From Fennellomyces sp. T-0311 (taxonomy: Eukaryota > Mucoromycota > Mucoromycetes > Mucorales > Lichtheimiaceae), in NCBI GenBank assembly GCA_025266875.1, contig JALLLT010000009.1, positions 744,001-808,000 of the forward strand: a DNA stretch of 64,000 bases. Reading direction: 5' to 3'. The position numbers were made by a program, and so were the translations under genes. Below are positions 45,069-55,200 of this stretch, piece after piece. Numbering within the stretch: position 1 is the first letter of the stretch; each line of letters starts with the position of its first letter. The notes under the pieces were generated by a model. It made no database searches. It was not told where the DNA came from and saw only the letters and a program-made list of their open reading frames with translations.

Positions 45069-46524
45069 ATGCACCATACTCCATCAACTCAGCAATCGTC
45101 AGACGGCATTATATGGGATTGTCCTGTCTGCGATAGTGACGAAGGACAATTCCATCGCACTGGCAAACTGGCCGGCACAGCGTAACCGTTTTTATATACA
45201 ATCCATGAATCACACCACACCGTTCCTGATCGGTTTTCTCTTTTAGCATTTGCAGAGAGTGCGGACACAAATGGCATTGGAAGCAAACAAGAAACATGGA
45301 CACGGAAAATTCCTTGACCAAAGACACAGTGAGGAATCGAATCACAGCGCGGACCACTCAAGATCAAACGGCTTTGAAAGACATTGGTGGTGCGAATTCA
45401 AGAGTGAACGAATCGCGAACGGCAGCCATTGATTCCCTCTCGCAAACACGTCAAAAGGTGGAACGGTTTCGACTGCAAGCGCTTAGCAAGGCCACCAGCT
45501 TGCCAAAGCCAGAGACGAACCCGGATGAATTGTATGGCGCGTGGCCCAAACCTGCGTTGAAAAAGACAGCAACCAAAACAAAATCAAAGGCATCGCGTCC
45601 AGCGGATTCGGGATCGTCCGAGAGCGAATTCGCGGAGAGCGACTATGAAAGCAATGCATCGGACGACGACTTTGCAGATCTACAGAAGCGAAAGAAGAAC
45701 AAGGGCAAGCAATCGACTGGATCAAAGCCATCGTCCGCACCCAAACGCGCCCAACGTCCCACAGTGCAAGACGATGACGACGATGACGACAACGACTCGA
45801 TCTTTTCTGACACTGGCAACGACGTTTACATGACCGAAGAAAACGAGCTGGATGACGAGCTGGTTGACGAGCTGGACGACGAGGAACTTTACATTCCAGC
45901 CAAAAAAATCACGAGTCTCAAACAGACATCAAAGAACAACAACAGCTACTCGAAACCCAACACCAAGAACAGGTACAGCATGTGGATCATGTTCAACAAG
46001 GCCAACCGGAAACGCATTGCCGAAGAAAACCCAGGCTGCACCAACGTCGAGCTCAGTCGACTGGTGTCGGAAGCGTATCGACAAATGCCGCTGGTATGAG
46101 CAAGCCATGGACATAAATGGACCCAACATATGCTCATGTTACATATTAGGAAGACCGCGAGGCACTTCGAAAGGACGCGTCGGAACACAGAAAGGTATTG
46201 GATGCGCAGAAGCAGCCCAAAACAACAGCACCGCGGAACGGCTATATTCTGCTCAGCATGGAGATGAGCGCAAAGTTTCAAAAGGAGAATCCCGATTACA
46301 GCATCCAGGACAGGAATTCAGTGGCGTCGCGCATGTGGAGAGAGTTGCCCGACGAAGAGAAAAAGGCCTACAGTGCGAGGGCAAAGCAGATGAGGGAAGA
46401 ATTTGCCAAACGGCATCCTGAGCAGTTCATGGCAATGAAGCAAAGGGCAGCCGCAAGGCGATCCGAAAGCATGATGAGGCGATACGCGGCAAAGAAGCGC
46501 AAGATGGACTTGGAAGACGAATAA
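45069..46524 (+). CDS. HMG-box protein with N-terminal zinc ribbon
   Basis: Three exons: 45069-45181, 45247-46093 and 46150-46524, about 444 residues. Residues 18-45 contain CPVC and, after the first intron, CREC (CPVCDSDEGQFHRTGK; ICRECGHKWHW), a zinc-ribbon pair like those in transcription factors. A basic/acidic Ser-rich middle follows, with DDDDDDDNDSIFSD and an acidic EENELDDELVDELDDEE run. Two HMG boxes end the protein: one at about 262-325 (YSMWIMFNKANRKRIAEENP; LSRLVSEAYRQM) and one at about 345-415 (PRNGYILLSMEMSAKFQKEN; SVASRMWRELPDEEKKAYSA). The C-terminal RRYAAKKRKMDLEDE is a likely nuclear localisation signal. Chromatin or transcription role inferred. The specific family is not identified. 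Confidence 0.82.
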
Positions 46525-47252: not shown

Positions 47253-50200
47253 ATGTTTCGTCAACACCCGGGCGTACTGCGGTGGACGTTTCTAGCTCTC
47301 CTGATAGCAGCTGTTCACGCGCAACTGGGTGATGTTAAGACCGACGTAAAATGGAGAGCAGGCCACGCGGCTGGTAAATGCCTTAGGAGAGGCGGGGAGG
47401 GAATGGAGGGCGGGAATGTGTTTGGGAATTCACTGGTTTTTTAATCGTAACGACCGAAATGGCAAATAGCTTTTCTAGAGCCGTACGTTGTTCTTTATGG
47501 TGGTAACGAGGATGCTGGTCAAAGTTACGATGATGCCTTACGCGGGTCAAACAATGTCTGGGTATGGAATCGTGACAATGGGTCCTGGTACAATCCGCCT
47601 GCTCCTCAAGATGCCAGACCCCAAGTTTATATTGCAGCCACCGAGTTACCCAGTTCAGGACAAATGATCGTCGTGGCAAGTAATACCACGGGAGGTGGAT
47701 CCGCGGGTTTGCTGCAGCAATTCGATACCAATACCTGGAGTTGGAGTTATCCATCTTCAAGTAAGGCGTGCCTTTTATATATATATATATATATCTATAT
47801 AAACTCCTTTCGAGATTGCTTATCCCCTTTTGATAGACACGGAAGCACCACCTCGCACTGCTCAGTTTTCCATCACCAGAGTGAATAATACCGTATATAC
47901 CTATGGCGGCACCACCGTCGATGCCAACGGGAATCTGCAAACAAGCGCTGTCGTCAACAACCTCTACACGCTCGACGCCAATTCATTTGCGTGGGGCCAA
48001 GGGTCCAACGGTATTGGTCTGACAGGCCATTCATCGTGCTATGTGCAGTCGTGCAACTGCATTATCGTTTTTGGCGGCACGACGACAGGCAGCGCAGGCA
48101 ATATTCGAGCAGTAGGTGTGATGCACGCTCATATTGAAAACAAATATTGACACACATTCGTGACCCATAGACGGTGGATATATACGACTTGTCCACGCGA
48201 GCATGGAGCATGCAAGTGGCCGTCGGGGGCAGTGCACCGGCAGCTCGTCGATTGCATACCGCCACATGCATGCAGGACAAGATGATCGTTTACGGCGGTG
48301 GCATTACCCAACCTTCAGATTCTAATGTATGGATCCTTGATGTGTCAAACTATCCCACACTTACCTGGGGGCAACAAGATATGCAGAACAAGGATCAAGG
48401 TCCCAACACCAGAATGGGTAAAAGCAGCCATTCGAACATGCGCCTCCCTCATTGACTGACTTGCAAAATTAGGTCACACTGCAGTCTACGATCGCGCAAA
48501 GCAAACGATCTACATCTTTGGTGGGTGGGGCAGCAGCGCCACCGACGATACCAACATGTATGCCATGGACGTTCAGAATTGGAGCTGGAAGCGCATTGCC
48601 GTGACTGGATTCGGCGACCAACGCGGTGGCGGTGGTTCTTCGTCCGACACCGGGACCATTGTCGGTGCAGTCGTTGGCGCCGTCGGAGGTCTTGCACTCA
48701 TCGCGCTTGCCCTGTTCTGTCTGTGGCGAAGACGACGCAGACAGCGAAAAGACGACGACGGTCAATCGGAAAAAACCGACGAAAACTACTACGATCGACA
48801 TCCGCATTACTGGACACACGACGGTGACAGCTTCAACAACCGATCCTCGTACGATATGGCTGATGTTCCTTATCACAATCGAAAACGTGCCAGCAAAGCC
48901 TTGACCGGTTCGCTCACTTACCGCGACTCGGTCAACGCCGTCCGATCAGAAATCGGTGACACAGATCGGGTCATGACAGGCGTTCTGGAAGAAATGGCTT
49001 CACCTAGCGACAGCGCAAGTGACAACAATTATTCCAACGGCACAAGAAGTTTCCGCGACTCTACCCACGCCAGCAAGGCACTGCTCATCCCAGACACCGA
49101 TCTGCGCAATGCCCAAGCTCCCAACGAAATCTTGTCCCAGAAGCCAAACGAGTTTTCCGTTCCAGCCTCCCGTTTGGCTGCGAATGGCAACGCCGTACCT
49201 ATCGAGCACTACAACCCGCAAAGTCCGACGTCCATTACCGCTACAGTGGGTGGTGGTGCGCCGTTGAGCAGCAGCATGGAGGTTTTGCGTAGTATCCAGA
49301 CAAACAACACCAGCAGTATGATGAATGCCGATGACAACGGCCGCGTGGTCGTTACGCACGCCACGCATGGTGGAGAAGAGGAGCCCCGAAAGAGCCAGGA
49401 CGAGGATAACGGCGAATCCGTATCGTTTCAAGCGCATGGTCCAACGGGTCCCATTCGATACATTCCTCCATCAAGTCAGCAGTACAGTCTGGCCACCACC
49501 ACCACAGCCAGTGCGGCAACGCATAATGCACGCAACGTGCCTCTGACGCATCATCAATACCCTTCGTCCAACATGAGCAGCGTACCTGTCGCCCGACCCA
49601 TTACGCCGGATCCGGAAGACCAAAACAACCGATCGTCCGTGCAACGCTACCAACCCATGGGCGGTGAAGGACAAGAGAACATTTACGAATCCGTGAGTCC
49701 GTTGGAAATGCTTGCTGCTCTCGGCCGCATCAACAACAATGCAAACACCGAAGCAGCAACAGCAGCAACAGCAACAACAGCAACAACACAAAACAGCAGC
49801 AATGCCACCGAGAGCACCAGTCAAGAATCTGCAAAGACTCGACCGCAATCGTCCTCGTCGCCGCACGATAGTTTGACAGTGGATCAACAAAGTCGTTTCA
49901 CGGCATTGGATCCGTTGATCAGTATGCTTCCTCGACGATACCAAATTGATAGATCCCAACCACCCATCATTGGACCCATGAACAGTGTCTTGTTTGTCAA
50001 CAAGACTGACAAGGATGACTCGACCAGTTCGGTTGTCATTAAATCGTTTGGTCGTCGCGAAGCTTGGGAACGCGAGTGTCGCACCTTGATCAAGTTGAAA
50101 TCACCCCATGTGGCCGAGTTATTGGAAGTACTGACCATCCAGGATGAGTCTCGAACGCCGTTGCCAAGACGATCCAATGCCGATCACGATAATTCCAACG

Positions 50201-50973
50201 ATGATGATTATGATTTGAGCACGATCCCCGATGAACCGCGAAACGACGATGACGACAAGATTAAGTACGCGACGGTGCTGGAACGGTTGGATGAAACACT
50301 CGGTTCGGCCATTCGTCGTGCTCGCTCCGACAAGTACAGCTGGACACGCGAACAGACGCGCGATATCGCAAGCAACGTGGTGGATTGTCTTGCTTGGTGC
50401 CATTCGCGTGGTATCGCCTTTTGCGACCTCAAACCAAGCAATATCATGCATCATACTGGTGGTCCTTGGAAATTGATCGATTTCGAAGCAAGTCGCACCA
50501 TTGGCGAAGAATGCGTGGGTGTGATTACTCCACGCTATTGTCCTCCCGAAGTCGCCCGTGCAACCACGTATGGTCTGGAAGGTGCCAATGGCGTGGTGGC
50601 TACGCCCAGTGTTGATTTGTGGGCCCTTGGTTGCGTGATTTACGTAAGTTGTTGCGATAGTCTATCTTTCTTTTGCCAGAGATATTAACAATATTTTTTT
50701 TGGCAGGAATTGGAAACGAAACATGCGCTTTTCGCAAGCAGCATCAAGGATGAAACGATTTTGCATTTCGTATCGCACCCTTCGCCTTCTACGCCCATCT
50801 TGAACAACGGTCTTCGTTGGAACGAACACAAGGAGCTGTATATCCCCAACCTCGATCGCAAGATACCGGATTCTCGAACACGACAGTTGATCAAGACGTT
50901 GCTCTCTAGAGATCCAACCAAGCGTGGCAATGCCTCCAAATTACTGGACCATCCATATTTCCAGAAGCAATAG
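47253..50973 (+). CDS. Kelch-repeat single-pass receptor-like protein kinase
   Basis: Six exons: 47253-47373, 47470-47760, 47837-48111, 48171-48417, 48473-50643 and 50707-50973, about 1123 residues. A signal peptide (WTFLALLIAAVHA) leads a secreted part with five kelch-like GG units (VLYGGNEDA, VYTYGGTTV, IIVFGGTTTG, MIVYGGGIT, IYIFGGWGSS). One transmembrane helix is at about 372-396 (VGAVVGAVGGLALIALALFC), with RRRRRQRK after it. A long Ser/Asn/Gln-rich region precedes a C-terminal kinase (about 800-1120): VVIKSF (Lys), EAWERE (alpha-C Glu), CDLKPSNIM, LIDFEAS, RYCPPE, VDLWALGCVIYELE and HPYF. The catalytic Asp, Lys, Asn and metal Asp are present. The HRD Arg is Cys and DFG is DFE. No GxGxxG loop is visible. 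It probably senses wall or environment signals. Confidence 0.9.
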
Positions 50974-52202: not shown

Positions 52203-55200
52203 TTACGAAAGCAAAAAGCTATTCTTGCCTTCCTTCATGGACATCAATAGTCTAAGGCGCATCTTCTCCTTGCTCGAGTAGTCCGGCATCTTGAGGTAGT
52301 TTGCGCACGTCATCACTGACGGTAGATAATCGTCGGGCCTCAGCGGTGACTCGGACGTCTTGCATACTACCGTGAATACCGGGCGCATGGCCTTCCATCC
52401 GCCAATAGGTAGTCTTGGGCTGCCCGTCGTGAATTGCAAAAACTCGCGTCGTTCTTGCTCACTCATTTCTGACAAGATGCTCAGCAGGTTCTTGAACGAA
52501 GCACTTTCCATGGTAAACCCGTGGTCAGCCTTGATTGCATCCGCAAGTGCTATATTCCTTTGTTAGTTCCGCACAGATCACAGTCGACGACGGCTAACTT
52601 ACTGGCATAGGACCAGTCTTCGGTGGATACGCCAAACAGCGATACCAATTCAGAGTAGGTCAGCACCTTCAGATCATCGATGGCAAACAGTTGATCGAAT
52701 CCTTGTCGGAAGGCTTCGAATTGCTTGGCAACACCTGCTCCAGCAACCATGTCTTGCAACGCCTCGATGAATTCTTCCACGTTATGAATGGTCACCGGAA
52801 TCTGCGCACCGCCGGTCTACAGTCACATTTAGCAATCAACGAGCGCGCTTCGTCACACTACTTTATACCTTGAGTTCGATATCTGGACTTCCTGGAAGCG
52901 TGAAATCAAGGCACAAATCTTCTATTCGGCTCGACTGTACTTGAATGTCATTCACGGCTTGCTTCTTTTGGTCCAACGTCTAAAACTTGTGTTGTTAGCA
53001 CGATGTTTCTGTCGTTAGTATTCGGACAGTGTTACCAATGAGGTATCTGCATAAATCGACCGTTTTCGATCAACAAAGGCTTCCAGCATTTCAATCGACT
53101 TGCCCAGCATGGGATCAATTTCCTATGCAGCAACGTGTGAGCTTGACCCTTCCTCCTTGCATATAAAACAAAGCTACTTACACTGATCAATTCCTTGCTC
53201 GGCTGCTCATGACCAAGTGCGACCTTGAAGAACGCTTCACTGAAGGGGAAATCGATGATGCGGAAATCCAGCATGGCCTTTGCGACAAACTGACCCAAGG
53301 TCTTGAACAAATTGATAATCTTTGCGCTGTTGGAAGACTCCAGCGATTTGCCACTTCGAGTCTTTTTACTCTTCTGAACCAGCGGTTTGGGGAACAGTCC
53401 CTGTTTTGTCACCACATATTCGCCCTCTTGGTCATCATCGTCGCGCCACATATTCAGAGTCTTTTTGCAGAATTCGCGCGACGTGGCTGCATAAAACTCG
53501 AGTGTGGGTCCCAACCCAGTCCCTTCTTCGCCCGTGTATTCAATTTCCAGCACCGACTGCGCCGATCCAAACAAATCCAGAATTTTGATGGCAGATTCAA
53601 GCATTTGCGCCCGCATGATCCGCACTTTCTGTCGTTCCATGCGTCCTAATACCGGCTGCTGGTGCTGTTGTTCGTCACGTTGGTTGCCGTTGCGCATTTG
53701 AAGACTTTGCCATCGTGCAATCAGTCGCGAATACCCAAACGACGTGCATTGGATGAACAGGTAGCGCGTTTCGAAGGGGAACAGGTACGGCGCTTCTTGC
53801 ATTAACCAGTATGTCCATCCAGGAAGACACGAACTGGCAACAATCAATGGCTCTTCAAGCTGTCGGTTCATCTTGGCAGTCAGCTTGCGGTTGATAAAGT
53901 CCTGCGCCGGGATCGCACTTTCTGACGCATGGAGCGGTTCTGCCAGCGATGCAATCGCTTTCAATAGTTCAAGTGCATGAGTGCATACCGTATCATCAGT
54001 CAATACCGATGGTCGTTCGATGTTTTCCAGTTGACGCGAAGCCTTGTTGCTGGTGTCTTCTTGTTGCTTGTCGTTGCTGGGCACCCACACGCGTTCAAAC
54101 GTAACAGGGTACGACATGATCCAAATGTTGCGAATGGACGAGGATCGACTGCCACTGCTGCCGCTGCTGTTGCTGCTCTCGTATTGATGTACGGCACCAT
54201 ACACAGTCGTGTCATTCGAAACCAATGTGTCCTTCAAGTAGAACTGGATGACCCATTTGCCCTCCGCTTTGGGTGGTTCCTTGTCACCTGTTGTATCCAT
54301 GGGATCACTGGCGGCTTCCTCCTCAGCCTAAAAAAGAATGAGTCAGGAATTGCACTTTTCTTTTTGCAAGTAAAACATACCTCTGCATTGTCATCTTCTT
54401 CCTGGACCTTGACTTCTTCGGGTGGCGGCGAATCTTTATCTCCGGACTGCTCACTTGCACTGGAGGATTCACCAGTGGAGGATGCTGCTGTCTTTTTGGA
54501 CTTGGAGGGTCGCCGTTTGGCAGACAGCGTATCGGCCGCAATTCGTGTCAACAAGTACTCCTCGAGAACCTTAAACGTGGCGACGGCATGAGTGGAAACC
54601 ATCAAAGCCTGATAATCCGAAGGAATATTATCACCGCGACCGGTCAAACGCAAACGCAGCTGTTTGGCAAGCATGCTGGTTGGATTGCGGAAATTATCAC
54701 CGTGAGAAGACGATTCTAGCGGCGTGACAACTTCAAAGGGTTCGAATCGACTGACAATTTCCTGCAAACGCATAACAAGCACTCGAATCGGATTGACGCC
54801 ATCGTCGGTGTTGGCACGCAACAGCAAATCACTGAAGGTCTTTGGGTCATCCTTCAAATACGTCAAGAGTGAATCCAACAGACCGGAATTCATCAGTTCG
54901 AAACTGCTGACACCCATTGTGGAGCTCTGCAAATAATCGATCAGGTGTGTCAAGCCAGCTGCGGCTTCCTTTGGACCTTTCTTCAAATCCTGGGCGATCT
55001 TTTGGATGTCTTCCAACGCGCGACCTGGCTTTTGAACTTGATCGAAATCTTGCCAATCGCGCATCAAATGTTGCGCGAATCGAATCACGTATCGACGCGT
55101 AGATCCGCGACCGATGCCTTTTTCTTCCGTAACTGCGGTGCTTCCCGTCACGAATCGACTACGCAACAGAGCTTGCAGTTCGCTGCGGTCCAACAATCGT

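Follow-up and report, generated by a model that had tools for sequence, protein, structure and literature searches.

The locus studied here raised the question of whether a fungal genome encodes a receptor-like kinase. It is a single gene on the forward strand of a 64,000-nucleotide stretch of Fennellomyces sp. T-0311 (contig JALLLT010000009.1, positions 744,001 to 808,000), which is called the window below. The initial annotation, made from the letters alone, had described a signal peptide, kelch-like units, a membrane helix and a kinase, and had remarked that such proteins are rarely described in fungi. The literature supported the remark: receptor kinases are absent from fungi according to one paper, and in another such an architecture was not found. 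Kelch and transmembrane are absent from the main text of an older fungal kinome comparison (PMC2838846). No paper on a kelch-kinase family was found in the literature searched, which was judged by titles and the starts of abstracts, with subscription papers and preprints outside its scope.

The protein was found to combine, in one polypeptide and in this order, a signal peptide (by hydropathy only), a six-bladed kelch propeller as the ectodomain, one transmembrane helix, a basic stop-transfer sequence, approximately 375 disordered residues and a cytosolic Ser/Thr-type kinase, which is the architecture of a type-I receptor kinase. Judged from sequence, it is likely a receptor-like Ser/Thr kinase that enters the secretory pathway with a type-I, single-pass topology; it is predicted to be active and most likely situated in the plasma membrane.

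One fused gene and its paralogue

Splicing of five GT-AG introns of 55-105 bases gave one open protein, and the boundaries proposed in the initial annotation were exact, with the ATG at 47253, six exons and the stop codon ending at 50973.

47253..50973, + strand: whole gene, start to stop codon; six exons, 1123 amino acids (splice reconstruction)
47253-47373, 47470-47760, 47837-48111, 48171-48417, 48473-50643, 50707-50973, + strand: exons

The protein search recovered the deposited counterpart, Fennellomyces sp. T-0311 hypothetical protein BJV82DRAFT_601235 (P0001). It was identical to a reconstruction with exon 2 starting from 47479 except for the residues AFL, intron 1 ending 9 nucleotides earlier in P0001 (acceptor after 47469). 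Residues matching AFL were present in the aligned close relatives (such as AAFLDPYV), and therefore the 1123-residue model with exon 2 from 47470 was preferred.

An annotation could have merged a kelch membrane protein with a separate kinase gene, and fusions of this kind do exist in the family, as in the Rhizopus stolonifer model P0051, which carries HMG boxes. However, blade 6, the transmembrane helix, the linker and most of the kinase are encoded by one uninterrupted 2171-base exon, and the same order recurs in many other genomes and in a paralogue. The kelch-kinase fusion is therefore genuine; two genes joined by mistake were rejected on account of the single open exon, and a merged gene model is most improbable. 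The initial annotation had named two findings that would speak against it, separate kelch and kinase transcripts and orthologues with a kelch part alone in the cytosol. Neither was encountered, the last blade and most of the kinase sharing one open exon and the relatives keeping the same domain order.

The paralogue was located in the same assembly (45.6 Mb, 182 contigs) at C95:202817-205453, its matched pieces being 49-80% identical to the window gene. Its product comprises a signal peptide, a kelch part, a membrane helix, RRRRR and a kinase with VAFCDLKPSN and LIDFEASR. Introns 1, 3 and 5 are common to both genes, introns 2 and 4 are missing from the paralogue, and one intron is private to it. 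Since introns are shared in both the kelch- and the kinase-coding parts, the comparison suggests that the duplication took in the whole fused gene. The genome was also scanned with a DNA pattern for IDFEA, which matched 12 sites; among the nine inspected (eight loci and the window site), only the two family genes had it within a kinase.

Four other kelch loci of the genome were inspected by eye in the stretch read. Two of them, L045 (C134) and L046 (C68), showed kelch, a signal-like start and a membrane helix with no kinase in the stretch read. L047 (C102) had kelch and a signal-like start only, again with no kinase in that stretch, and L048 had neither a signal-like start nor a membrane helix. 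The first three are possible kinase-less companions of the receptor-like genes.

Ectodomain, membrane helix and linker

For comparison, 139 family proteins were gathered, fragments included; 56 near-full-length sequences were aligned and 39 near-full-length members were scanned singly. The parts of the window protein outside the kinase were assigned as follows, with the model confidence expressed as the predicted local distance difference test (pLDDT).

47253..47321, + strand: signal peptide, residues 1-23, with a tentative cleavage site after VHA (hydropathy; helix 6-25 in the predicted structure)
47334..48603, + strand: six-bladed kelch ectodomain, approximately residues 28-355 (sequon N112, Cys205 and Cys262 conserved)
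48649..48726, + strand: transmembrane helix, residues 371-396 (hydropathy 2.59; helix 371-404 in the predicted structure)
48727..48750, + strand: basic stop-transfer RRRRRQRK, residues 397-404, marking the cytosolic side
48751..49875, + strand: disordered juxtamembrane linker, residues 405-779 (pLDDT <50 over most of it; conserved short motifs)

Both the signal peptide and the single transmembrane helix of the initial annotation are present. A hydrophobic segment ahead of blade 1 was recorded in 36 of the 47 aligned members with a judgeable start (nine more were not judgeable) and in 7 of 615 control segments, the controls being 34 residues long and the member segments up to 60. A membrane segment was present in all 56 aligned sequences, with a lowest hydropathy of 2.08, and in all of them Lys and Arg were more frequent after the helix, on the kinase side, than before it. 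A cruder earlier count had given a single membrane peak in 53/56 and a signal-like start in 24/36.

The check proposed in the initial annotation, a comparison with the Pfam Kelch and Pkinase profiles, placed the window protein well above both cut-offs: 144.9 bits against 50 for kelch, and 108.2 bits against 31.7 for PF00069, which identified a eukaryotic protein kinase. Kelch profiles and Pkinase were likewise matched at E 0.001 in 39/39 scanned members. The five kelch-like units counted earlier had to be replaced by six blades in the predicted structure, blade 2 having lost its GG pair with its strands still modelled. The kelch profile, the predicted structure and the fold comparison together identified a kelch propeller; the comparison with solved structures covered the propeller alone, and propeller matches filled its list.

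Of the 56 aligned sequences, 55 kept the sequon at N112, 36 that at N154 and 35 that at N77. Their density (1.35 per 100 in the ectodomain, 1.58 per 100 in the linker) failed to separate the two regions, therefore conserved positions alone were counted. Cys205 was kept in 56/56 and Cys262 in 54/56. The conserved sequons and cysteines fit an extracellular or lumenal propeller, the cell surface and the endoplasmic reticulum (ER) not being told apart by them.

It could be proposed instead that the protein is a sensor of the ER lumen or the Golgi, whose propeller would monitor conditions in the lumen, in the manner of Ire1 and PERK, and whose kinase would relay stress to the cytosol. The signal peptide, helix, sequons and cysteines suit the ER lumen equally well, and PERK-like catalytic domains on transmembrane kinases of anaerobic fungi are described in PMC10512342. 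Against such a sensor, the window protein ends with the kinase and has no RNase domain match in Pfam, so that it does not have the Ire1 form. Moreover, its ectodomain is kelch rather than of the Ire1 type, and the FQKQ at its C-terminus does not have the form of a dilysine retrieval signal. We consider this explanation unlikely and prefer the plasma-membrane receptor-like kinase.

Two short linker motifs were conserved: QKPNEFS (window 49138-49158, residues 534-540) and SVSPL(D/E)xLAxLG (window 49690-49725, residues 718-729), the latter overlapping a short modelled helix. They are candidates for docking or phosphorylation sites.

An ErbB1 transmembrane-juxtamembrane profile matched 16/39 scanned members at E 0.001, with the window protein below the cut-off (window 48658-48750). 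The match is probably a composition effect of a membrane helix followed by basic residues.

An unusual kinase core

The kinase was modelled with a pLDDT mostly >90, the insert 877-901 excepted, and its main features are listed below.

49876..50970, + strand: protein kinase domain, residues 780-1123, with the intron 50644-50706 inside (Pfam 108.2 bits)
50041..50043, + strand: beta3 Lys K835 in VVIKSF (K in 56/56 of the alignment)
50419..50427, + strand: FCD at the HRD position, residues 961-963, catalytic Asp D963 (count over 130 catalytic loops)
50479..50487, + strand: DFE at the DFG position, D981 and E983 (both invariant in 56/56 of the alignment; Glu in 130/130)

The motifs VVIKSF, CDLKPSN and LIDFEAS were all present as initially read. 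The residues of the chemistry, namely the beta3 Lys, alphaC Glu, catalytic Asp, catalytic-loop Lys and Asn and the metal Asp, were invariant in 56/56 aligned sequences, and so were the APE Glu, the F-helix Asp and the alphaI Arg. Cys replacing the HRD Arg and Glu replacing the DFG Gly were equally invariant, the DFG position reading DFE in 44, DLE in 10 and DME in 2 sequences. In the wider collection, the catalytic loop was detected in 130 of the 139 proteins (FCD 76, YCD 52, YCA 1, YCG 1; the pattern was blank in the other nine), with Cys at the HRD-Arg position in 130/130 and the catalytic Asp in 128/130. The third residue of D-x-E was Glu in 130/130 (129 by a pattern that itself requires Asp, P0122 by eye), and the beta3 Lys was recorded in 134/134 detected, by a pattern that permitted Lys or Arg only.

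Canonical motifs were thus not found at GxGxxG, the HRD Arg or the DFG Gly in the alignment. The change of DFG to DFE and the missing GxGxxG had been recognized in the initial annotation; the place of the latter is taken by a shorter loop in which G812 and N815 are invariant. The HRD Arg-to-Cys change also held, with the correction that the His is replaced as well.

The DLKPSN loop and Thr997 point to Ser/Thr specificity. A tyrosine-kinase catalytic loop was not found, the loop being [FY]-C-D-L-K-P-x-N in 56/56 aligned sequences, and a tyrosine kinase was rejected on this ground; the UniProt name receptor protein-tyrosine kinase on Absidia glauca P0019 is unsupported. The NCBIfam matches were all far below cut-off.

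The altered motifs may be read differently, with the kinase fold of a receptor pseudokinase acting as a ligand-gated scaffold with no phosphotransfer. None of the glycine-rich loop, HRD Arg and DFG Gly has kept its usual form, as in many pseudokinases, and the catalytic Asp is lost in two Mortierellales members, P0132 (Dissophora ornata) and P0134 (Gamsiella multidivaricata). These observations weigh against an active receptor kinase, as do some on its topology. Signal peptides were judged by hydropathy alone, and 11/47 starts failed the test. Three of these are Umbelopsis models whose first residue lies close to where cleavage is expected, three are Phycomyces models with values near the threshold, and the other five, Jimgerdemannia included, are fused, extended or very short. 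The predicted template modelling score (pTM) of the whole model was 0.46, the domains not being placed relative to each other. Nevertheless, the chemistry residues are invariant throughout the alignment and nearly all detected loops keep the catalytic Asp. A scaffold is not expected to keep catalytic residues over such depth, and we regard the pseudokinase as improbable, slightly more so than the ER sensor. The kinase forms a distinct family, with an unusual core that is probably active.

The loops of P0132 and P0134 read YCALKPTN and YCGLKPTN, with the catalytic Asp replaced by Ala or Gly. These two proteins are probable pseudokinase paralogues.

For the active receptor-like kinase we propose the following mechanism. 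The signal peptide would send the propeller outside, where it is probably glycosylated and its cysteines may pair. The ligand could be a wall polymer or else a protein, either a secreted one or a kelch partner; its binding would cluster or reorient the receptor, and the cytosolic kinase would then phosphorylate itself, the linker, or partners docked on the conserved linker motifs. Being non-RD, the kinase probably does not use phosphorylation of its activation loop as a switch. The Glu replacing the DFG Gly may take part in the metal site, acting by analogy like the matching Glu of choline kinase and methylthioribose kinase. According to PMC4702295, those eukaryotic-like kinases (ELK) carry Glu at the DFG Gly position; the DFE Glu-to-Ala change in choline kinase cuts kcat tenfold, and the DPE Glu of methylthioribose kinase coordinates with MgATP. 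In contrast to them, the window protein has its Glu inside a protein-kinase domain that bears the APE, F-helix and alphaI signatures, whose APE Glu and alphaI Arg are invariant, and no ELK family match was obtained at E 0.001 in five members.

Relatives, descent and known receptor kinases

The full-length protein search, which operates by shared words and length, returned 109 hits; 106, at E ~1e-94 or better, were assigned to the family and three lay far below. Kinase-region searches covered the best 120 of 151 hits for the window protein and the best 120 of 133 for a Mortierella alpina member. The named organisms among the matches listed were Mucorales, Umbelopsis, Jimgerdemannia and Mortierellales, and one plant protein stood last in the M. 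alpina search. There the E-values leapt from 7e-46 to 2e-8 at the plant kinase among the matches listed, which gives the family a sharp edge. Among the matches listed, plant proteins were named in two cases only, P0108 in the full-length search (E 1.2e-5) and P0143 in the M. alpina search (E 2.3e-8). No match from Glomeromycotina, Dikarya, Zoopagomycota or chytrids was among those listed, which does not prove absence there. The domain order that the initial annotation had suggested seeking in Mucoromycota proteomes, kelch, helix and kinase, occurs in relatives from all four fungal groups named above.

The kinase tree comprised 61 rows, 60 picked from a set of 130 proteins and the own-genome paralogue. 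It was unrooted, its drawn root being arbitrary; 31/58 inner branches were well supported and 15 open, and P0044 and P0041 were long. Mortierellales formed one group on a long branch, Jimgerdemannia lay between them and the rest, and Umbelopsis stood apart. Mucorales included a second clade of five rows holding the own-genome paralogue, other second copies not being placed. Since the rows group by fungal lineage, the tree matches the prediction of vertical descent. A plant or animal source of the window gene by transfer was rejected, the tree following fungal lineage and no close outside relative being among the matches listed.

The family sequences are already public, as hypothetical or misnamed proteins. 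In the deposited records Mortierellales P0079, P0081, P0083, P0092 and P0103 go by F-box only protein 42, Cyclin-dependent kinase 12 or 13, or Negative regulator of mitotic exit, and such names hide the receptor-like architecture. F-box only protein 42, given to many Mortierellales members, is misleading: FBXO42, KLHDC2, KLHDC3 and LZTR1 are intracellular ubiquitin-ligase adaptors and, unlike the window protein, have neither a signal peptide nor a kinase.

Upstream on the same strand, window 45230-46524 encodes an HMG-box sequence. In P0051 the HMG boxes fused to the orthologue probably come from a neighbouring gene, and the two may reflect an old gene order, at a weak similarity (32%, E 0.002). 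Downstream, on the minus strand, window 52203-52816 encodes a HECT ubiquitin-ligase domain.

The protein resembles plant receptor-like kinases in its signal peptide, ectodomain, single helix, cytosolic Ser/Thr-type kinase and HRD Arg-to-Cys change, and the kinase-less L045 and L046 resemble plant receptor-like proteins. It differs from the plant kinases in the Glu at the DFG Gly, the kelch ectodomain and the fungal origin of its listed relatives. Plant non-RD immune receptors presumably carry HCD; the HRD Cys is the sole feature behind the parallel with them drawn in the initial annotation, and the parallel was not supported. On PF07714, a profile not specific to receptor-like kinases, the window kinase scored 20.6 bits, below the cut-off of 23.1, versus 108.2 on PF00069, and some members passed it (P0044 with 31.5 bits). 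A match to it at E 0.001 was obtained in 26/39 scanned members. Kinship with plant receptor-like kinases is neither shown nor excluded by these profile scores. Type-I single-pass topology is shared with animal receptor Ser/Thr and Tyr kinases, from which the protein differs by a DLKPSN loop that is not of tyrosine-kinase form and by its ectodomain. Among fungal membrane kinases, Ire1 and the PERK-like transmembrane kinases of Neocallimastigomycetes are comparable, with the difference that the catalytic domains described in PMC10512342 are PERK-like and the sensor domains other. Membrane kinases in fungi are hence not wholly new.

As far as architecture goes, the family contradicts both papers cited at the outset. 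On the sequence evidence it is a class of receptor-like kinases that early-diverging fungi have conserved over a large branch, and it provides a conserved sequence-level counterexample to the absence of fungal receptor kinases. Tentatively, since the ancestor of Mucoromycota and Mortierellomycota these fungi may have had their own, independently built receptor-kinase class, with kelch receptors whose kinase family has an extra, functional carboxylate in its metal loop (D-x-E) and which work alongside kelch membrane proteins that lack a kinase, like the receptor kinases and receptor-like proteins of plants.

Fungi of the soil, fungi associated with plants and agents of mucormycosis all belong to the branch carrying the family. 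Some of these fungi are described as poor in NLR-like proteins in PMC9119436. The receptor-like kinase may serve in sensing hyphal surroundings, as the initial annotation had suggested, and the family offers a concrete candidate for how these fungi sense the outside. It also allows testing of whether a protein kinase can be active with a Glu in its DFG loop.
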